The notes under the pieces: generated by a model
Seen by the model: the letters and a program-made list of their open reading frames with translations, nothing else
What the model was told of the DNA's origin: nothing
Databases searched by the model: none
Part shown: positions 4,753 through 39,384 of the stretch, in pieces
Numbering within the stretch: the first letter of the stretch is position 1
Layout: each line of letters begins with the position of its first letter
Translations under genes and position numbers: made by a program
Assembly (NCBI GenBank): GCA_905233545.1
Contig: CAJOEV010000013.1
Location: 1-39,384 of the forward strand
Source: an uncultured Eubacterium sp.
GTDB taxonomy: Bacteria; Bacillota; Clostridia; Oscillospirales; Acutalibacteraceae
Length of the DNA stretch: 39,384 nt
Reading direction: 5' to 3'

Positions 4753-6141
4753 TCAATATCCTCTTTTTTTGAGTTCGTTTATTAATGAGGAAAACATAAT
4801 CAGCGAGAGAATAATGCAGAAATAATCAGCAGCGGGCTGAGCCCAGATTATGCCTTCAAGACCTATTAATTTATCCATAATGACCAGCATCGGAAGGAAA
4901 ACAAGTCCCTGACGGCTGACGGCGAGAATAAGCGACCTTCCGCCTTTTCCCATTCCCTGGAATGCGAAGTTAATTATAAACATAACGCCGACAAACGGTC
5001 CTGCGCTCATAAGTGCAGTAAGCATTTTAACGCCGTATTCAATAACCTCTTTGTTATCAATAAAGCTTGCAACAACCTGTTCTCTGAAGAAAATATAGAA
5101 AACGGTCATAACCGAACCGATAATGATGTTGCACAGCATTGAAAAACGAATGCTTTTTTTCATTCTGTCGATGTTCTTTGCTCCGTAGCAATAGCCTACA
5201 AGGGGCTGAATACCCTGGGCAAGACCAATCTGAAGCATAACAACAAGCATATTTGCTTTCATTGCAACGCCCATTGCTGCAACGGCGGTATCGCCGTACT
5301 GTGAAAGGAACATATTGACAATAATGTTTGAAAGGCTCATGAGAAGATTGTTCAGGGAAGCGGGAAGTCCGACGCTTATAACGCCCTTTGCAATTCCGTT
5401 TTTTGCCGAAAAGCGCTTCGGAGTAATTGAAAGAATTGATTTTCCTTTCAGAAAATATGCAAGGAAGAATAAAACCGAAACAACATTTCCCAGAACCGTT
5501 GCAATTGCAGCGCCTGCAACGCCCATATCCAAGCCAAACGGAAGGTTGAAGAAAAAAAGCTTTTCGCCTTTTCCGAGAATAAAAATCGGGTCAAGAACAA
5601 TGTTTGTAAGCTGACCGATAACCATTCCGATCATTGATTCTTTAGCTGCGCCTTCGCCCCTGATAAGATTTGCAACCGTTATCGCAGCAACAATAATCGG
5701 TGCGCCGAGCGCAACCCAGAAAAGATAGCTTTCGCCGAAGCCTACGCTTGCATCGGAAGCTCCGATTAAATAAAGAAGCGGAGTTTTGAAAATCATGAAG
5801 ATTGCGCCGAGAATAATTCCGCACAGAATTGATGTGTAAATACAAAACGAGGATATGGATTTGATTATATCCTTTTTGCCTTCTCCGAGAGAACGGCTGA
5901 TAAATGCACATCCGCCGACTCCGAAAAGATTTCCGATTGCAATAAACAGAAAGAACAGCGGCATTGAAAGCGAAACCGCCGAAACCTGGTTTGCGTCGCC
6001 TGTCTGACCGACGAAAAATGTGTCGGCAAGATTATATATTATGTTTATAAGCATTCCGAGCATACTCGGAAGTGCAAGGGCTGCGACTGCTTTGGGTATG
6101 CTGTAGTCGCTGAAAACCTTGGTGTTATCTTTTTTTGCCAT
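4753..6141 (-). CDS. MATE-family multidrug/cation antiporter
   Basis: The 462-residue integral membrane protein has about 12 hydrophobic segments and the MATE signatures PSMLGMLINIIYNLADTFFVG near the N-terminus, the Gly-rich LFIAIGNLFGVGGCAFISR, and a second repeat half starting at VGLPASLNNLLMSLSNIIVN. MATE proteins export drugs or metabolites from the cytoplasm using Na+ or H+ gradients; the substrate cannot be read from sequence. Its ATG follows the rsmA stop as TAG-T-ATG with no Shine-Dalgarno motif, so translation probably depends on ribosomes finishing rsmA. The GNAT-like gene follows 1 nt after its stop. The length matches the family. Confidence 0.93.
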   Translation of the reverse strand: MAKKDNTKVFSDYSIPKAVAALALPSMLGMLINIIYNLADTFFVGQTGDANQVSAVSLSMPLFFLFIAIGNLFGVGGCAFISRSLGEGKKDIIKSISSFCIYTSILCGIILGAIFMIFKTPLLYLIGASDASVGFGESYLFWVALGAPIIVAAITVANLIRGEGAAKESMIGMVIGQLTNIVLDPIFILGKGEKLFFFNLPFGLDMGVAGAAIATVLGNVVSVLFFLAYFLKGKSILSITPKRFSAKNGIAKGVISVGLPASLNNLLMSLSNIIVNMFLSQYGDTAVAAMGVAMKANMLVVMLQIGLAQGIQPLVGYCYGAKNIDRMKKSIRFSMLCNIIIGSVMTVFYIFFREQVVASFIDNKEVIEYGVKMLTALMSAGPFVGVMFIINFAFQGMGKGGRSLILAVSRQGLVFLPMLVIMDKLIGLEGIIWAQPAADYFCIILSLIMFSSLINELKKRGY

Positions 6142-7771: not shown

Positions 7772-9280
7772 TTAATCGGTTATTTTATTCAAAGCGATAT
7801 GAATCGTTGTTCCTTCGCCCTCTTTTGAGCTTGCCCATATTCTTCCTTCGTGGAGCTCAACAATCTGCTTGCAGATATAAAGACCGAGTCCCGAGCCCTC
7901 GCTTACCTGGCTTCGTGCAGGGTCGGCACGGTAGAAGCTGTCGAAAATTTTGGGAAGATTTTCGGAGCTTATTCCTATTCCGTTATCCTCGATTGCAAAA
8001 ATAACGGTCTTTTTATATTCTCTTGCGCTGAATTTTATAACGCACTGAACATCTTTTTTGCTGTAGCGCACTGCGTTTGAAACAATGTTTCGAACAACTC
8101 GCTGGAACTGGTCGGAGTCGAGCATAACATATGCTTCGTCGCTGCATTTATTGTCATAAGTGTTAATGATACCCTTTTTTTCAAGATAAAGCCCGATGCT
8201 GTTTTCACAGTCGGCAAGGAAATCATTTACTCTGATTTTCTGAAAATCAAGACTGATTTTTCCTGTTTCAAGCTTTGATACTGTCAGCAGTTCATCAAGA
8301 AGCTTTTCCATTGAAAGTGTGGATTCGTATATTCTGTTGAGATAGCGTTCCTGTTTTTCAGGGGTGTCCGCAATTCCGTCAATAAGACCTTCAACATAGC
8401 CTTTAACCGAGGTCATCGGAGTTCTCATATCGTGGGCAACTCCTGCAATTATCTCTCTTTTTGATTCCTCAGCCTCGTTTTTCCAGTGCATTGATTCGCG
8501 CAGACGGTCGGTCATCTTGTTAAATGAATCAACCGTTTCACCGATTTCGTTCGTGCTATCGTAATCAATAACATAATCGAGATTGCCCTGGGCTATTTCA
8601 TGCGCGCCCTCTTCAAGCTTCCTGATAGGTTTGATAATAGTTGAAGCGGTGAAGAACGAAAGAACAAGAGCGGTTACAAAGAATACTAAAAGAATAATCG
8701 CAAGCACAATGGCTGTTCTTCCGTAAATAATTTTGTTAAAGCCTTCAATGCTTGTTTCATTGATAACATCGTTAAGCGTATAGTCGGGGTCGGCAATAAG
8801 AATCAGGTATTCTTCATTATCCGATGCGGCGTGGGTCAATAAAACCATTCCCTTGGCTGTAACGCAGTAGGTATTCTTTTTTGTGTTAACAGGGATTATT
8901 TTGTTTGCAGCCTGAAAAACGGTTTTTTTATCCGAGTTTGTGTAAAAATCACCCGACGAGTTGCTTATGTATATAAGGGAACCGGTTTTCTCTGCAGGTT
9001 TTGCAATGGTGTCAATTTCATTCAGCTTTCTTGAATCTGAATGGTCGGAAATCAGCTCATCCGCAAGTCCGTTGAGTAATTGATTCCACTGAAAAACATT
9101 TACAACCGAATAGGTGCTTGAATCAAGAGTTTTAAGATTAAAATATGTTGAAAAAGCACTGTAAAAAAACGTGCCGAACAATATTATGGTTGTCATCGGA
9201 ATGAGCACTCCGAATACAGTTGCAAGTGTAATTCTTGTTGAAATCTTCAGATTCCTTAAGCTTTTCTTTTTCGTTTTCAT
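7772..9280 (-). CDS. membrane sensor histidine kinase (HAMP-HisKA-HATPase)
   Basis: A 502-residue kinase. Membrane segment 1 is at about 17-42, an extracellular sensor region runs from about 43 to 183, membrane segment 2 is at about 187-212, and a HAMP linker follows (TIIKPIRKLEEGAHEIAQGN). The HisKA domain carries the phospho-acceptor His283 in VAHDMRTP, and the ATPase domain shows the N box (RNIVSNAVRYS), G1 (DNGIGI) and G2 (GSGLGL) boxes. It autophosphorylates on sensing an unknown external cue and passes phosphate to Asp53 of the regulator downstream. No ribosome site precedes the ATG, and the -10 box ends 6 nt before it, so a leaderless mRNA is likely. Confidence 0.95.
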   Translation of the reverse strand: MKTKKKSLRNLKISTRITLATVFGVLIPMTTIILFGTFFYSAFSTYFNLKTLDSSTYSVVNVFQWNQLLNGLADELISDHSDSRKLNEIDTIAKPAEKTGSLIYISNSSGDFYTNSDKKTVFQAANKIIPVNTKKNTYCVTAKGMVLLTHAASDNEEYLILIADPDYTLNDVINETSIEGFNKIIYGRTAIVLAIILLVFFVTALVLSFFTASTIIKPIRKLEEGAHEIAQGNLDYVIDYDSTNEIGETVDSFNKMTDRLRESMHWKNEAEESKREIIAGVAHDMRTPMTSVKGYVEGLIDGIADTPEKQERYLNRIYESTLSMEKLLDELLTVSKLETGKISLDFQKIRVNDFLADCENSIGLYLEKKGIINTYDNKCSDEAYVMLDSDQFQRVVRNIVSNAVRYSKKDVQCVIKFSAREYKKTVIFAIEDNGIGISSENLPKIFDSFYRADPARSQVSEGSGLGLYICKQIVELHEGRIWASSKEGEGTTIHIALNKITD

Positions 9281-13878: not shown

Positions 13879-14696
13879 CAATTCTCACCTCCGTTTTCTT
13901 CATCAGGATTTGCACTGTCACCGAGATTGTCGAATACTTCGGCAACATCCTCCTGTTTTACTTCTTCTTCGAAGTAGAACATATCGGTAACCTCTTCCTG
14001 TTTCTCAGTTTTAAACTGAGCAAAGGTGGGGTCGGGAGTATCCGAAACAACTTCACCGTTTTGAATAACGATAACTCTTCTCTGGAAAGAGCGAACAAGC
14101 TCGTGCTCATGAGTTACCATAACAACGGTTGTTCCGCTGTTGTTGATTTTTGTTAAAAGGTCAACGATTTCATGGCTCATTTCGGGGTCAACATTTCCTG
14201 TGGGCTCATCGGCAATGATGAGTTCGGGATTGTTTACAAGAGCTCTTGCAAGCGAAACTCTCTGCTGCTCACCGCCCGAAAGCTCGTTCGGCATTGAACG
14301 CGCCTTTTTCGAGAGACCGACAAGCTGAAGGATATAGGGAACTCTTTTTCTTATATCCTTTTCCTTTGCGCCGATAACGCGCATTGCGAATGCAACATTA
14401 TCATAAACGGTCATTTTCGGAATGATTCTGAAATCCTGGAAAACTATTCCCATTGTTCTTCTGTAGTAGGGAATCTTTCTCTTTTTAAGGGTTGCGGAGG
14501 AATATCCGTTAACAACAACCTCGCCCTCGCTTGGTTTCTCCTCCTGCATAATGAGCTTTAAAAATGTGCTTTTTCCCGCACCGGAAGCACCGACGACGAA
14601 AACAAATTCACCGTCTTCAATTTTAATATTGACTTTATCCAGCGCCTTAGTGCCGTTACTGTCATATATTTTTGTGACATCCTTAAATTCAATCAC
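13878..14696 (-). CDS. ftsE: cell-division ATP-binding protein FtsE with acidic C-terminal extension
   Basis: The ATPase of FtsEX. The 272-residue protein has Walker A GASGAGKST (residues 36-44), the Q-loop region GIVFQDFRIIP, signature LSGGEQQR, Walker B LIIADEPTGNVDP and the H-loop VMVTHEHEL. FtsE is usually about 225-230 residues; here about 45 extra residues rich in Glu and Asp follow (EEVTDMFYFEEEVKQEDVAEVF...). The start is GTG at 14696 with GGAGA 8 nt upstream. It is the first gene of the operon, transcribed from a promoter at about 14763-14791. The function is firm; the role of the acidic tail is unknown. Confidence 0.95.
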   Translation of the reverse strand: MIEFKDVTKIYDSNGTKALDKVNIKIEDGEFVFVVGASGAGKSTFLKLIMQEEKPSEGEVVVNGYSSATLKKRKIPYYRRTMGIVFQDFRIIPKMTVYDNVAFAMRVIGAKEKDIRKRVPYILQLVGLSKKARSMPNELSGGEQQRVSLARALVNNPELIIADEPTGNVDPEMSHEIVDLLTKINNSGTTVVMVTHEHELVRSFQRRVIVIQNGEVVSDTPDPTFAQFKTEKQEEVTDMFYFEEEVKQEDVAEVFDNLGDSANPDEENGGEN

Positions 14697-28809: not shown

Positions 28810-31683
28810 ATGAAAAAGGTTATTAGCTTATTGCTGTCAATATGTATGTTGCTCAGCGTTACTGCAGGAATGAATTTCAATGCTTCAGCAGTTACGAGCA
28901 ATAGTGTTCAAGCCAACTCGCTTGCTTCAGGTGATATAATTCAGATGGGAATGTATCCTCAAACAAGAGTAACGTCCGATAACATGTTAAACAAACTGGA
29001 AAGCATTAATTGCACGCTGAGAAATTTTGGATATATGTGTGATTCAGATGCTGAGAGTCATACAAATACTACTCTGGATATCAGTTATGCAGATATCAGC
29101 TGTGACGGATTATTATACAGAAAAGTTGTTATGAACTCATGCAGACCAATATATACCAGCTCATCACAAGATGGCAGTAATTATCACGAGAGAAACGGAT
29201 ATTCTCCTAAAAACACTTATTATTTTAAATGGGAACCGATGGAATGGAGAGTTCTTGGCAAAAGTAATGACGGTGTTTATGTTATGAGTGAGAAACTCAT
29301 TGATTCTCAAGCATATCATTATTATGATGAAGATTCAACATGGGAAAACTGTTCATTGCGAAATTGGTTAAACAACGAATTCTATAATTTGGTATTCTCG
29401 AAAAGTGAGAAAAGCAGTATTAAATATACATATTTAAATAATGAAAACAACCCATATAACAGCACAAATGGAGGCAACGCAACAAACGATTATATCTGGA
29501 TTCCGTCGTACAGCGATATGATAAACACAAACTATGGCTTTTCTGCAGATGCAGGTGACTATGACAGCAACAGACTGGGCAAAGGAACAGATTACGCAAA
29601 AATGCAAGGCTTATATGTTAATAGTTCAGGTTATTCTTGGTGGTGGCTCAGAACACCCGGAAAAAGCTCAAATAGTTTAATGGGCGTTTATGATGAAGGA
29701 TATATTTATAATTATTCATCATACTTTTCATTTAATGCAACTGATGAGGGTATAAGACCGGCATTTATTATTAAATCAAACGCATCCGTAGTTAAATCTA
29801 ACAAAGATAGTTATTCTTCAAAATATGGCTGGTCCTTAACCAATAAAAATGATTCATACGGTTATACCGAGCATTATAAAATCAAACCGGAAAAGTATTA
29901 TTCATTGTTTGGTATATCTTTATCAACTTTGTTATTATCAAGTGTGAAGATGGTTAATGAATGGGGGGGAAGTTGTTTTGGTTTATCCTTACTGTCGTTA
30001 GCTCAATACTACAATATTGTTGATTTAAAACCGCTTTTCTCAGGGGATTCAGAGTATTTATATGACTTTGGATATGAAAGAATATATGAAAATCCTGATG
30101 GTGAGCAATGCTTTTCAGTAGAAGGCAACAATAAAGCAATAGATTTGATTGAGAGGGCAATGATTTCACAAAACTCAGTGGAGTTCTCAGAAAGTGAGAT
30201 CCTAAAATATGATTCTGACTATTCAGAATTGCTTGAATTTTTGAATTCTGCAGATGCAAGACCGATTCTGGTAACTTTTAACTATGGAAAGTTTGGACAT
30301 GCAATGGTAGTTACTACGGATTTCAAGCCTGTAAAGCTTAATAATTCTGATTATTATAAAATTCCGGTGTATGATTCTAATGCACCTGAAAATAGTGACA
30401 AGCTGACCAATCCCATGTCAGAGTATACCCGAGGACCGTCATATCTGTTGGTTAATCCGATAACCGGTAAATGGCAGTATTATGCCGAAGGAAAAGTTCA
30501 GAAACAAGCGTCTTACTATAGTATTTCCGAGTGGAAAGTTGACAATGCTTTAGCTCGCTCTATTAGGTTTTTTGATGTATCTTCATTAGATAAATCTTTT
30601 TTTACCAAAACTCTAAATGCGTTTTATAAACATATTCAATTACAGTTTAGCTCAAATAATATAAGTATACAAAATGATAGCGGCGAATTATTGCTTAAAA
30701 TCACGGACGGCAATATTACAGATTTAGCAAAAGACTGTATATGCAACTCAAACATTAGTTCGGAAAATGATGAATCAGCGCCGGTTTTTACATTCTATAC
30801 CGACACAGAAAATCTGACTATTGCATCTGACAATGCCGAGATTCTGGGTGTTAGTTCAGATTGTGCTCTTATGGCAAGTTCGGAAAAAGCAAATACTACC
30901 AAGTTCAATTTTGCACAAGGCACTGTAACAGTTTCGTCAAAAGAGAATAATGAAAGTATCATTATTGCATCGCAGGATTTGAAGTCAAATAACTGTATTA
31001 AAGCAACAGCTAAACTAAACAATAATGAATATGCTACCATAAACACAAATGATAACACAAAAAAATCATTGATAAAATCAAACAGTGATAACGTTAATTA
31101 TGTTTGTGAAGGAGTTGCTGATAATAATGTCATCAAAGATATTAATAAGGATGAACAATTAAAAACAAATCTTAGTAAAGTACAGATTTTAGGAATAAAA
31201 AATAAGACTTACACCGGAAATACGATTAAGCAATCAGTTACAGTAAAATTCGGAAACAAAACCCTAAAATACGGAACAGACTATTCTGTTTTATACAAGG
31301 ACAACAAAAAGATTGGCAAGTCAACTGTTGTTATTACAGGAAAGGGCAATTACTACGGAACTGTTGAAAAATCATTCAAAATACTTCCAAAAGGAACAAG
31401 TATTTCAAAAGCGACAAGCCCGAAATCCAAGCAGATAAAGGTTTTTTGGAAGAAGCAGAAGAAACAAACAACCGGATATCAGATTCAGTATAGCGCGGAT
31501 AAAAGTTTCAAGAAGGGCAACAAGACCGTAAATGTTTCCAAAAACAAAACAACATCAAAAACAATTTCAAAGCTAAAAGGCAACAAGATATACTATGTTC
31601 GTATCAGAACATATAAAAAGGTTGGGAAAACAAATTATTATTCTTTCTGGAGTAAAGCTAAATCGGTTAAAACAAAAAAATAA
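28810..31683 (+). CDS. large secreted protein: DUF6273-like, cysteine-protease-like, Ig-like and FN3 domains
   Basis: A 957-residue exported protein with a signal peptide (MKKVISLLLSICMLLSVTAG...ASA, about 1-27). Residues about 38-325 resemble DUF6273 (GDIIQMGMYPQT, FKWEPMEWRVLG, SLRNWLNNEFY, IWIPSYSDM, WWWLRTPG, GIRPAF). Residues about 375-600 look like a papain-fold cysteine protease: Cys389 in EWGGSCFGLS, His497 in FGHAMVV, and Asp522/Asn524 in VYDSNAP. A beta-rich Asn/Ser region follows, then an Ig-like repeat (YTGNTIKQSVTVKFGNKTLKYG) and a C-terminal FN3-like domain. The start has GGAGG 6 nt upstream; an ATG 33 nt earlier is rejected. Codon and base use are more AT-rich than the operon before it. 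Target unknown. Confidence 0.75.
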   Translation: MKKVISLLLSICMLLSVTAGMNFNASAVTSNSVQANSLASGDIIQMGMYPQTRVTSDNMLNKLESINCTLRNFGYMCDSDAESHTNTTLDISYADISCDGLLYRKVVMNSCRPIYTSSSQDGSNYHERNGYSPKNTYYFKWEPMEWRVLGKSNDGVYVMSEKLIDSQAYHYYDEDSTWENCSLRNWLNNEFYNLVFSKSEKSSIKYTYLNNENNPYNSTNGGNATNDYIWIPSYSDMINTNYGFSADAGDYDSNRLGKGTDYAKMQGLYVNSSGYSWWWLRTPGKSSNSLMGVYDEGYIYNYSSYFSFNATDEGIRPAFIIKSNASVVKSNKDSYSSKYGWSLTNKNDSYGYTEHYKIKPEKYYSLFGISLSTLLLSSVKMVNEWGGSCFGLSLLSLAQYYNIVDLKPLFSGDSEYLYDFGYERIYENPDGEQCFSVEGNNKAIDLIERAMISQNSVEFSESEILKYDSDYSELLEFLNSADARPILVTFNYGKFGHAMVVTTDFKPVKLNNSDYYKIPVYDSNAPENSDKLTNPMSEYTRGPSYLLVNPITGKWQYYAEGKVQKQASYYSISEWKVDNALARSIRFFDVSSLDKSFFTKTLNAFYKHIQLQFSSNNISIQNDSGELLLKITDGNITDLAKDCICNSNISSENDESAPVFTFYTDTENLTIASDNAEILGVSSDCALMASSEKANTTKFNFAQGTVTVSSKENNESIIIASQDLKSNNCIKATAKLNNNEYATINTNDNTKKSLIKSNSDNVNYVCEGVADNNVIKDINKDEQLKTNLSKVQILGIKNKTYTGNTIKQSVTVKFGNKTLKYGTDYSVLYKDNKKIGKSTVVITGKGNYYGTVEKSFKILPKGTSISKATSPKSKQIKVFWKKQKKQTTGYQIQYSADKSFKKGNKTVNVSKNKTTSKTISKLKGNKIYYVRIRTYKKVGKTNYYSFWSKAKSVKTKK

Positions 31684-31723
31684 TACAGACAACAGCTTGT
31701 ATTATGCATATCTGCAAATTATT

Positions 31724-31760
31724 AAAGCAGGTTGAGATTTTTAAATTCTCAACCTGCTTT
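31724..31760. terminator. long hairpin after the large secreted protein gene
   Basis: A perfect 14-bp stem, AAAGCAGGTTGAGA (31724-31737) with TCTCAACCTGCTTT (31747-31760), has a 9-nt loop. The U-tract on either strand is only three bases, so it may be a weak terminator or a 3' protective stem. The rest of 31761-31865 is AT-rich without a gene. Confidence 0.6.
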
Positions 31761-31865
31761 AAAAATGTCTTAACCTTGTTTTTTTCTTTTTTTATAAAAA
31801 ATTGACTTATTCCCATTAATCAAAAAGTGTTTTACATTAGGGAGGCAATTGGAGTCTTGCTGTGT

Positions 31866-36171: not shown

Positions 36172-36285
36172 TTGATTTTTGTAGAGCGGTGGGATATAAT
36201 ACCCCTTGTCAGTTCGCAAAATCCTGACGTAAAACAAAACTAAGGAGAAAGAATAAAAAACCGCTATTTTAGGCGGTTTTCTTTT
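36172..36285 (+). ncRNA. candidate small transcript at the left end of the mobile element
   Basis: A promoter (-35 TTGATT 36172-36177, 17-bp spacer, -10 TATAAT 36195-36200) would start RNA at about 36207. About 50 nt later lies the terminator AAAACCGC (36257-36264) / GCGGTTTT (36273-36280), followed by CTTTTATTTTT. In between there is a small stem GTCAG/CTGAC (36208-36228) and a GGAG motif (36244-36247) with no open reading frame after it. It could be a small RNA of about 80 nt or the 5' stump of a gene cut off by integration. Confidence 0.45.
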
Positions 36286-36337: not shown

Positions 36338-36367
36338 ATGGTAATATATTTTCAGGAGTTGATATAT

Positions 36368-37873
36368 ATGACCATAAAAAAGCGGACTAATAAAAAAACA
36401 AACAAAAAAGAGTATAAATGCCGTTATTCCTTCAAAACCTCTGACGGTGTTCTTCACGATACCGAAACAGGTTGGTTCCCTTCTGAAAAGGAAGCCAAAG
36501 AAGCGGCTAAAAGGCTGAAAGAGGAAAAGGAAAAGGCTGAAACAAATAATACTCATAATCGAGAACGATTAGTCAAAAATGTATTTTCGGAATTTGTTGA
36601 CTATCTCTATCAAAAGGACAAAGAGACCGATGCAACGACTTATTACAATTATTATTCGTGGTCTCACGCAATTCTGAACAAACATATTCCGAAAGACATT
36701 GAAAAACTGAAAATTAAGGAATTAACGCCGTCGGCATATTATAATTGGTTAAATACAATTAATAAAAAATCATCAGTAGGCGGGAAATATATTAGGTGTA
36801 TTCGAGATGCATTATACAAATTCAATGGATATTTACAGGATGAAAACTATTACCTTAATTTAAGTGAATATTTATCATATTCAGCAGCGTTAAAAGAAGT
36901 CCCTCTGAAAAGCATTAGCGTAAACAATAAGGAAGATGCAGGCTTACGTCATTGGTACAATGTCAACCAACTCCACGCCTTAGTAAGTTATTATCGTGAA
37001 AATTTAGGCGAATTTAATAGTTTTTATTGGTACACGTTTTTCTATGTCCTCTTTTTCTCAGGAATGAGAGTGGAAGAAATCGTTGCGCTTCAATGGAACG
37101 ATATTGATTTTAATTTAGGTACGCTAACGATCGACGACAGTATCGCACGCGTCGAAACAAAGGAACGCGTTAAAAAGCGCTTAAATGAAAACGTAAAGAA
37201 AACCAAAAACAAGGACAGCGTAAGAACCATTCCGATTTTGGATTTTTATTATGAACTTTTGAAGGATTATAGCGAAAGTTATCAATATCAATTCAACTTG
37301 AAAAAAACGGAAATGTCTGATTGTTTTGTTTTTCCGAATCTAACGCATAACAACCCGAATGAGTATCAACTGCACGATAACATTGCAAACGCTTTACAAA
37401 AAGCGGCGAAGGCAAAGAAATTACCAAAAACCGATGCTCAGATGTTCCGTCATTCCTGTGCTTATTTTCTGATAGTCGAACCGCCAAAGGGTTTGGGCTA
37501 TGATATATCAAAAGTATATGATTATTTCGGTCATCAGAATGAAAGCATGATAAGAACCGTTTACGGTCGTTTTTCAAAAGAGCAAAAAACCGACAAATTG
37601 TTAACCACTTTTTCGGATATAGCAACAACCTATATTAAACCCGATACGGTGAAACAAAAAGAAGCGGAAATAGCAAGGCTTATTGAACGAATAACGGGCG
37701 ATAACAAAGAACTAAATAAAGCAAGAAAAGAACGTATTTTCGGACAGATTGATTATGTTTCAAAAAAGACAAACAAAACCGTTTATTATTATCGGAAAAG
37801 CGATAAAGATATTATAAAGGAATACAAGGCGAACAATCCGAATTGCAGATTACAATTTGTACAGGAAACCTAA
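36368..37873 (+). CDS. tyrosine recombinase/integrase of a mobile element
   Basis: A 501-residue integrase that would insert and excise the element by site-specific recombination. Residues 1-60 resemble the arm-type DNA-binding domain (KKRTNKKTNKKEYKCRYSF...WFPSEKEAKEAAKRL). Residues about 68-165 are the core-binding domain. The catalytic domain (about 195-415) shows Arg234 in FFSGMRVEEIVALQW, Arg361-His362 in QMFRHSC, His389 in FGHQNE and the nucleophile Tyr399 in IRTVYGRF. The first His of the usual HxxR box is Gln358 here. About 75 residues follow past the active site, ending in a basic Tyr-rich segment. The ATG at 36368 has AGGAG 9 nt upstream; the TTG at 36332 is rejected. It reads inward, as is normal at an element end. 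Confidence 0.93.
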   Translation: MTIKKRTNKKTNKKEYKCRYSFKTSDGVLHDTETGWFPSEKEAKEAAKRLKEEKEKAETNNTHNRERLVKNVFSEFVDYLYQKDKETDATTYYNYYSWSHAILNKHIPKDIEKLKIKELTPSAYYNWLNTINKKSSVGGKYIRCIRDALYKFNGYLQDENYYLNLSEYLSYSAALKEVPLKSISVNNKEDAGLRHWYNVNQLHALVSYYRENLGEFNSFYWYTFFYVLFFSGMRVEEIVALQWNDIDFNLGTLTIDDSIARVETKERVKKRLNENVKKTKNKDSVRTIPILDFYYELLKDYSESYQYQFNLKKTEMSDCFVFPNLTHNNPNEYQLHDNIANALQKAAKAKKLPKTDAQMFRHSCAYFLIVEPPKGLGYDISKVYDYFGHQNESMIRTVYGRFSKEQKTDKLLTTFSDIATTYIKPDTVKQKEAEIARLIERITGDNKELNKARKERIFGQIDYVSKKTNKTVYYYRKSDKDIIKEYKANNPNCRLQFVQET

Positions 37874-38095: not shown

Positions 38096-38818
38096 ATGAA
38101 TAACGACTTTGAAAAAATGGTTAAACAATCTAACGATGCCACTCTTTTGGATATGTATTCGAACGAGGCTTATTATACAGAAGAACGTCGCGAAATCTTA
38201 CAAAATGAACTAAAAATAAGAGGATTATCAACTATTACTATTTTTGAAATATCAAAAAAATATGACTTGGATTATGGTGATTTTTTAGATTTTCTTACAG
38301 ATAATAACCTTGAAATAGAAAAGGGAAATGCACCATTTGAACGTTCTATAAAAACAGAAAATATTAAAAAATATGTTAGTATGTATACAGGAGAACCAAT
38401 TGAAAACATCAAGCCGGTTTCTGTAAACAAAAAAGAAAAGAAAAAAGGAGACACTGATTCTAAGGATTGCATCACAAATAGCAGTGTTCTACCAGAAAAC
38501 AATCATAAACAATCTACAATAGTTACAAATTCTGTAAGTGCAAAAGATATCGATATTGTGTTGAGTATTGCGTCAATTAGACGAATGGGGCTAATATCAA
38601 TTATTTGTGCAATACTCAATCCAATTATTACTTTAATCTGTGGTTCAATCGGAAAAAGAAGAGGATACGAATTACACAGTGTTCCAAGCGAATTGAAGGC
38701 ATCATTGAATGAAGCCATTGGTTATAATCAGAAAGGAATAACATTATCCATAGTATTTTTAGTAATTGATATTATCGCCGCTATTATTGCTACAGTATAC
38801 TTTGGTGGGTATTATTAA
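38096..38818 (+). CDS. mobile-element membrane protein of unknown function
   Basis: I do not recognise this 240-residue protein. The N-terminal 100 residues are polar and helical (MLKQSNDATLL-like opening, EERREILQNELKIRGL, then FEISKKYDLDYGDFLDFLTDNN), which may be a small interaction or DNA-binding-like fold. A Lys/Asp/Ser-rich linker follows (about 105-150). The C-terminus has two membrane segments with a short loop (LISIICAILNPIITLICGSIGKRRG and ISLSIVFLVIDIIAAIIATVYF type), resembling DUF4190-like tails. AGGAGG lies about 8 nt before the ATG. Low G+C and position after the integrase mark it as element cargo. It is real by ribosome site and length; its role is unknown. Confidence 0.65.
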   Translation: MNNDFEKMVKQSNDATLLDMYSNEAYYTEERREILQNELKIRGLSTITIFEISKKYDLDYGDFLDFLTDNNLEIEKGNAPFERSIKTENIKKYVSMYTGEPIENIKPVSVNKKEKKKGDTDSKDCITNSSVLPENNHKQSTIVTNSVSAKDIDIVLSIASIRRMGLISIICAILNPIITLICGSIGKRRGYELHSVPSELKASLNEAIGYNQKGITLSIVFLVIDIIAAIIATVYFGGYY

Positions 38819-38867: not shown

Positions 38868-39032
38868 ATGAATGATTTTGTTAACCCAATGGAGTTTGAT
38901 AACATTGATGATTTTATCAAAGCCATTGAGAATAAATACAACACCAAAAAACGCAACGCGTTTGATGACGAGAGTCAGACAGTCACCCCTGACGGTCGCA
39001 ACCAACACCACAACACTTTTGATGACCGATAA
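38868..39032 (+). CDS. small acidic protein of 54 residues, mobile-element gene
   Basis: A short reading frame with a strong ribosome site (GAGGAG 8 nt before the ATG) and a terminator directly after the stop. The product begins MNDFVNPMEFDNIDDFIKAIENKYN and ends with two similar pieces, NAFDDE and NTFDDR, separated by a polar Gln/Asn/His stretch. It is acidic at the start and carries no membrane segment or Cys. Its position 49 bp after the 240-residue gene suggests one transcript. Small phage-like regulators often look like this, but no family is recognised. Confidence 0.65.
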   Translation: MNDFVNPMEFDNIDDFIKAIENKYNTKKRNAFDDESQTVTPDGRNQHHNTFDDR

Positions 39033-39057
39033 CAGCACCTCCCCCGGTGCTGTTTTT
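39032..39057 (+). terminator. intrinsic terminator after the 54-residue gene
   Basis: A perfect 8-bp stem, ACAGCACC (39032-39039) with GGTGCTGT (39046-39053), has a 6-nt loop and five T residues (39053-39057). It overlaps the stop codon by one base and separates the gene from the structured region that follows. Confidence 0.88.
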
Positions 39058-39084
39058 GTATATACCAAATTTTCCCAAAATTGA

Positions 39085-39384
39085 AAGGGCTTCCGACATA
39101 CTAAACTTACACAGGTAAAAGGTAGTTTTATCGGTTGCCCTTAACCGAAAAGGGAAACCGCTTTGAGAGGCTTGCCAAAGTTTATGAATATCAAAGCGGC
39201 ACTTTAAGCGAAACAAGTATAAACTTTTGAGTATAGCCAAGCTCACGCATAGAATTGGCTCGGCATGGCGGCAGCAGCCTATTGTCAAAGTGTCGAAAGG
39301 GGTTGAGTCGAGCCGCAAGACCTCTGCCTAAGTTGATTATATCAATATGGTTAAAAGTAGGGCTCGGGGGCGCACCTGTTTAGA
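39085..39384 (+). ncRNA. candidate large structured RNA, cut by the window end
   Basis: This stretch has no plus-strand gene but a dense set of helices. These include CGGTT (39132-39136) / AACCG (39156-39160) enclosing CCCTT (39138-39142) / AAGGG (39150-39154); a perfect 9-bp stem CCGCTTTGA (39158-39166) / TCAAAGCGG (39191-39199) that shares three bases with the first; AGCCAA (39235-39240) / TTGGCT (39255-39260); AGGGGTT (39298-39304) / GACCTCT (39319-39325, two wobbles); and TTGAT (39333-39337) / ATCAA (39341-39345). GNRA-type loops GCGAAA, CGAAAG and CGCAAG fit the plus strand. G+C is higher than in the flanks. Large ornate RNAs (GOLLD/ROOL type) or a guide-type RNA such as HEARO/omega RNA are possible; the class is not recognised. 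No clear promoter is visible. Confidence 0.5.

Follow-up and report, generated by a model that had tools for sequence, protein, structure and literature searches.

The final 300 nt of the window (39085–39384), a 39,384-nt stretch that is the entire contig C13 of the 76-contig genome (G000) of an uncultured Eubacterium sp., are the 5′ half of a conserved, foldable, non-coding region of ~590 nt, which continues for ~290 nt past the window end and stands directly upstream of a canonical-looking, putative MobV-type transfer origin (oriT). We put at about an even chance the reading that this is a region of the transfer origin which works as folded single-stranded DNA, sso-like and/or a leader for the relaxosome. 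An earlier note, made from the letters of the window, had supposed that the window stops inside the feature and proposed extending it to the right; the extension is provided by a relative, uncultured Eubacterium sp. isolate Red_deer_4_mag_11 (G028; CAJOHE010000001.1, a 226-kb contig), whose intact locus L005 holds the whole region from 8562 to about 9150, with a terminator on one side and the MobV-type oriT on the other. In the window, the intrinsic terminator at 39031–39054 (+) has 9 pairs and a T tail and closes a small ORF. The region opens with variable 5′ hairpins (39085–39142, +), and the 5′ half of its conserved core (39131–39384, +) runs on past the contig end, at L005 8862–9150 in the relative. 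The note was also right that a terminator precedes a gene-free stretch of raised G+C: 39085–39384 holds no conserved gene, and its G+C is 45.3% compared to 39.8% for the window.

Conservation was evaluated across several genome samples. A search of 148 related genomes returned four with matches: the own genome, G028 (97%), G048 (95%) and G011, in which a 22-nt match was taken as chance, mobV being absent from that locus. With a longer query, six of 80 genomes of the genus matched, and the structured region was present in three (own, G028 and G048); in G036, G072 and G076 the match was limited to 42 nt at the 3′ end of the small ORF. Matches were found in 18 of 398 genomes of a family sample (E ≤ 0.01) and 4 of 394 of an order sample (E ≤ 0.001), all of them except the own genome spanning 23–40 nt, and tblastn located mobV in none of the 21 short-match loci of these samples, for seven of which the sequence was read. 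Plasmid and phage collections gave no blastn match to the region. Among viral contigs, an 18-nt core pattern had 0 matches, the 23 contigs with a stem-pattern match showed no blastn match to the region at E 0.5, and no relatives were found with the integrase and relaxase queries; the one genome contig matched by the relaxase query was that of G028 itself.

The three carriers allow the rate and the placing of substitutions to be compared. The window differs from G028 at 9 of 300 nt (3.0%), with 4 of the 9 differences in the first 46 nt, and from G048 at 14 positions (one an insertion), 8 of which fall within the first 46 nt, whereas fourfold sites of the own genome and G028 differ at 17/156 in the integrase and 13/74 in mobV (11–18%). 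The portion of the region that lies on contig C62 of the own genome equals L005 except for the length of an A-run, and divergence starts just past oriT. In a structure-constraint check, pairs from the G028 fold were confronted with 17 substituted sites in three sequences, one 1-nt insertion being left out. In the first 46 nt (8 substituted sites), 6 of 19 pairs are lost in one or more of the sequences, one becomes a wobble and none is compensated; the predicted 5′ hairpins are not preserved, and the compensatory changes anticipated for the stems that the earlier note had listed are absent there. In the remaining 254 nt, the nine substituted sites have a mean pairing probability of 0.38 versus 0.60, with 3.6% of random draws as low. 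Two C/T changes in the core keep a possible G-U pair on the plus strand, one of them at a low-probability pair; at one site two sequences break the pair, the G048 locus (L006) breaks one pair of a 13-bp stem unless the partner outside its contig also changed, and compensatory changes number 0 among the three near-identical homologues (95–97%). This substitution pattern lends weak support to a predicted structure in the core and none to the 5′ hairpins. The G048 contig ends at L006 4175, the same base as window end 39384, and an end base shared by contigs of two separate genomes suggests that the next stretch is common to several elements of the source communities.

The 300 nt alone fold poorly. 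Their z of –1.28 was equalled or bettered by 21 of 200 shuffles, and 13 of the window's 38 ordinary tiles of this length have a value that low or lower. They do contain two perfect 9-bp stems, 39158–39166/39191–39199 and 39177–39185/39219–39227, a number found in 4 of 200 shuffles (mean 0.17); the two cross, and so form a pseudoknot or are mutually exclusive. The stem count is less unusual at other lengths, with 15 stems of at least 6 bp (matched by 11/200 shuffles), 3 of at least 7 bp (83/200) and 2 of at least 8 bp (30/200). The first 9-bp stem (39158–39199, +) has the same sequence in all three homologues. The two 9-bp stems bear out the earlier note's observation of helices, whereas the 300 nt overall hardly stand out from shuffled sequence and the 5′ helices are broken in one homologue or another. 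Among background stretches, the tiles at about 14051–14649 and at 31501–31800 of the window reach z of about –6.

The whole region folds far better. With RNA parameters, the 599-nt whole in L005 gave z –5.57 on the plus strand and –4.47 on the minus strand, and with DNA parameters –6.23 and –4.68, with 0 of 100 shuffles as good in each case. Background 599-nt tiles (n = 46, 16 shuffles per tile) had a mean z of –1.55, with values of –4 or lower in 4/46 and of –5.5 or lower in 1/46, so that foldability by itself is not rare. In addition, the whole region has four perfect stems of at least 9 bp within 150 nt, compared to 0.27 expected (0/200 shuffles). A 13-bp stem pairs L005 8648–8660 with 8880–8892; its 5′ arm lies at 39171–39183 (+) of the window, as carried over from L005, where it overlaps the competing 9-bp stem 39177–39185/39219–39227, and its 3′ arm lies outside the window. 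Two more stems of 8–9 bp also span the window end. The better fold of the whole is partly due to such long stems, which tie the window half to the sequence beyond, and they partly explain why helices were noticed in a cut piece that nevertheless folds poorly. Windows in the 3′ part favour the plus strand (z –5.29 versus –0.62 for minus at L005 8961–9110), whereas those at 8781–8990 favour the minus strand. The plus strand of the region carries a GAAA hairpin and a wobble-containing stem, and a hairpin AAGGAG-ATGTG-CTCCTT occurs near its 3′ end. A 10-mer, TTGCCAAAGT, is present at L005 8651–8660, 8759–8768 and 8882–8891, twice on plus and once on minus, its second copy reading TTGTCAAAGT in the window; it may serve as a repeat bound by a protein or allow switching between alternative stems.

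The oriT-like site follows at about L005 9144–9190 and has a motif of the type arm, inverted repeat, GGTATAACTTGCTAC. This motif aligns with 8 of 9 plasmid MobV loci as well as with 2 of the 3 genomic ones that have upstream sequence (L040 and L038); the pattern had no match before the relaxase in L084, L039 and L097–L099. Foldable sequence also adjoins other MobV origins. Across ten MobV loci including L005, the 300 nt upstream of oriT have a plus-strand z of –4 or lower in six and –2.8 or lower in eight, with the weakest at –1.95 (L005 itself gave –4.04, and –5.27 with other shuffles), compared to –4 or lower in 3 of the window's 38 ordinary tiles of that length. Genes overlap some of the ten upstream stretches, and the minus strand folds better in six of the ten, so that foldability at the other loci does not point to the transferred strand in particular. 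In lactic acid bacteria, MobV plasmids have a conserved foldable region upstream of mobV (L080 860–1090, L097–L099) that was matched in 181 plasmid records, and most of the 40 records listed carry no annotated feature there. Among four sequences of it, compensation preserves 6 of 50 predicted pairs, and 8 of 50 show a break or gap in one sequence. The idea that it occurs on small plasmids lacking mobV was dropped, mobV being present in all three plasmids examined. Literature searches over titles and abstract openings of open-licence papers, on structured RNAs of mobilizable elements, on MobV oriT and sso work and on structured regions upstream of a MobV oriT, gave nothing describing such a region.

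From this arrangement we infer a function as single-stranded DNA. Specifically, MobV would nick oriT just downstream of the region, the plus strand, which codes for the relaxase, would depart as single-stranded DNA, and the conserved region would fold on this departing strand. So folded, it may be an sso-like start for the second strand, at which host RNA polymerase would prime, and/or a transfer-origin leader for the relaxosome. The assignment of plus as the transferred strand would hold by analogy with pMV158, in which the transferred strand is the mobM coding strand, according to the excerpted text of PMC5863519. The order terminator, region, oriT, mobV in G028 and the lack of a promoter-like match between terminator and region count for the DNA reading. 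Ssos are described as working through structure and in one orientation (excerpted text of PMC4595007), and predicted secondary structure is indeed found on the putative transferred strand, the minus strand also being structured. Against an sso, the region is much longer than ssoA, given as ~160 nt in the part of PMC5703833 consulted. The CS-6 motif TAGCGA/T of some sso types (PMC10378824, in excerpt) has one plus-strand copy, at L005 8958, with ~0.3 expected by chance in 590 nt. Also counted against the DNA reading is that the GAAA hairpin and the wobble-containing stem suit RNA equally. The return of single-stranded DNA to duplex in a new host is known for few small mobilizable elements; the region beside the MobV oriT offers a specific candidate for a second-strand origin of unusual size, and several other MobV loci are foldable at the same place.

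The known modules closest to this arrangement share part of it. In the locus, as in the pMV158 and IMESag-rpsI modules, a MobV/Mob_Pre relaxase has an inverted-repeat oriT immediately ahead of it. The element is integrated in the chromosome, as is IMESag-rpsI, a MobV mobilizable element whose mobilization module contains a putative sso (excerpted text of PMC5090054). Unlike in IMESag-rpsI, where ssoA is placed downstream of mob in the text seen, the extra ~590-nt region is upstream of oriT. With ssoA, ssoU and ICEBs1 sso1 the region has in common that it is non-coding, foldable on the presumed transferred strand and near a relaxase gene and nick site; unlike these, it is longer and without demonstrated sequence similarity, and its sso function is that of a candidate.

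A tentative alternative is that the region is a non-coding RNA of ~590 nt from a new, large and ornate class, borne by the element and similar in size to ROOL. Its size, the low divergence of the region relative to fourfold sites, the stronger plus strand of the whole fold and of the 3′ windows, the 13-bp long-range stem, crossing stems and GAAA hairpin, and the tendency of core substitutions to fall away from paired positions or to leave a possible G-U on plus are all consistent with an RNA. However, DNA parameters score the fold at least equally, the L005 8781–8990 windows favour minus, pairs are broken in the 5′ hairpins, uncompensated, and also in the core, and comparable foldable DNA adjoins other MobV oriTs. 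No promoter-like match lies between the terminator and the region, and the single one inside it (39227–39255) belongs to a number no higher than in shuffles. Rfam gave no family at gathering cut-off for either the window end or the whole region in L005; the best permissive matches (E 1.9 and 0.31, respectively) were all microRNA or eukaryotic models far below cut-offs. No ordinary RNA family is indicated by this search, and it leaves without support the parallel to GOLLD, ROOL or HEARO that the earlier note had drawn, families that we take to be present in Rfam. Neither ROOL nor GOLLD had a covariance model match, and no family model matched for HEARO, the omega RNA of IscB. The region resembles ROOL and GOLLD in length, mobile-element setting and complex predicted fold (ROOL env-120, from cow rumen, has 659 nt in the excerpted text of PMC12286853); it differs in lacking an Rfam match, in that ARAGORN reports no tRNA for either the window or L005, in that no phage context was seen, and in being known here from DNA alone. 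It resembles HEARO in its placing, as a structured stretch ahead of a protein gene of a mobile element. A protein gene does follow, as the earlier note had thought possible, but it encodes a MobV relaxase (Mob_Pre) rather than an IscB-type nuclease, and the oriT-like site lies between. Of the note's central proposal, a large structured RNA carried by the element, the large, conserved, foldable and non-coding character stands, whereas RNA rather than single-stranded DNA found no support. We consider it rather doubtful that the window holds the 5′ half of an undescribed ~590-nt ornate RNA class which travels with the MobV mobilizable elements that uncultured bacteria living with animals carry (one carrier genome comes from a red-deer metagenome) and which possibly acts with the relaxase or transfer machinery; were it RNA, the region would represent a new class of large RNA linked to DNA transfer.

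The region might also form the 5′ end of the mobV mRNA, as a long structured leader controlling relaxase expression in cis, given that it lies upstream of mobV on the same strand and bears the AAGGAG-ATGTG-CTCCTT hairpin near its 3′ end. This is improbable: oriT and ~90 nt of less conserved sequence intervene before mobV, and no promoter match lies directly upstream of the region. Both mobM promoters of pMV158 are located within and next to oriT (PMC5863519, in excerpt), so that a mobV mRNA would, by analogy, exclude the region. A coding or decayed gene is highly improbable, since the sole ORF of at least 60 aa that extends into 39085–39384 (minus strand, 111 aa, 38983–39318), although open in the window and L005, traverses the plus-strand terminator and small ORF and is frameshifted by a 1-nt insertion in L006, where 87 aa are left.

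Returning to the folded-DNA reading, the element that would be transferred is a small, ~5-kb MobV integrative mobilizable element (IME) of uncultured bacteria. The order in L005 is att core, tyrosine integrase, cargo genes, small ORF, terminator, ~590-nt region, oriT-like site, MobV relaxase, promoter-like match and att core. In the own genome the other element end is on contig C62, with ~225 nt missing between the contigs, as judged from L005. The tyrosine integrase (36356–37870, +; frame open from 36332) matches Pfam Phage_integrase (1.2e-17) and is 97% identical to the G028 copy. The MobV relaxase (L005 9279–9995) matches Mob_Pre (1.8e-13 for the G028 copy), and the own copy on C62 is 97% identical to it. 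In contrast to the IMESag-rpsI and pMV158 modules, the host element has a relaxase 28–35% identical to the 20 plasmid proteins listed, and all 181 matches are below 60%. Relatives occur in 5 of 398 family genomes (E ≤ 1e-8) and 1 of 391 class genomes (E ≤ 1e-15), the own genome being in both counts. The four others are 28–38% identical; upstream of three of them blastn found no similar region, with a short oriT match in one.

Integrase and relaxase are common to the own genome and G028, and the structured region to all three carriers, the G048 contig being too short to reach either gene. The genes just before the small ORF differ per carrier (window 38096–38818, L005 6970–8059, L006 1781–3565), and the site upstream of this ORF looks like a cargo-swapping site. 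In the window the cargo is a 240-aa gene (38096–38818, +) with no Pfam match. The 54-aa small ORF (38868–39032, +) is nearly invariant in DNA in its 3′ part, and its 3′ end surrounds a near-invariant hairpin, GACCGTCA-CCCC-TGACGGTC. Partial relatives of this ORF also occur in G036, G072 and G076 (L090, L091 and L092), in which the genes that follow are presumably BrnT/BrnA-like.

The left att core, ACAAAACTAAGGAG (36234–36247, +), lies in a queT-type leader and has its right-end match on C62 (L037); the L005 copies are at 5254 and 10165. The element inserts at the ACAAAACTAAGGAG segment of this leader, queT being named by reading the protein. At the right end, a TATAAT promoter-like match (10/12, TG ahead) and a second preQ1-like leader are supplied, so that the gene would still have a riboswitch-like leader once the element is integrated; with the preQ1 model, the two ends of the element score 17.6 bits and, for the second leader, 18.5 bits, short of its cut-off of 39, and several unrelated models score equally or higher. 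A related integrase piece of 128 residues, 85% identical and with one TGA and one TAG inside, is found at L054 (G079:C69) 616–999, adjoining what reads as L28 and recA genes.
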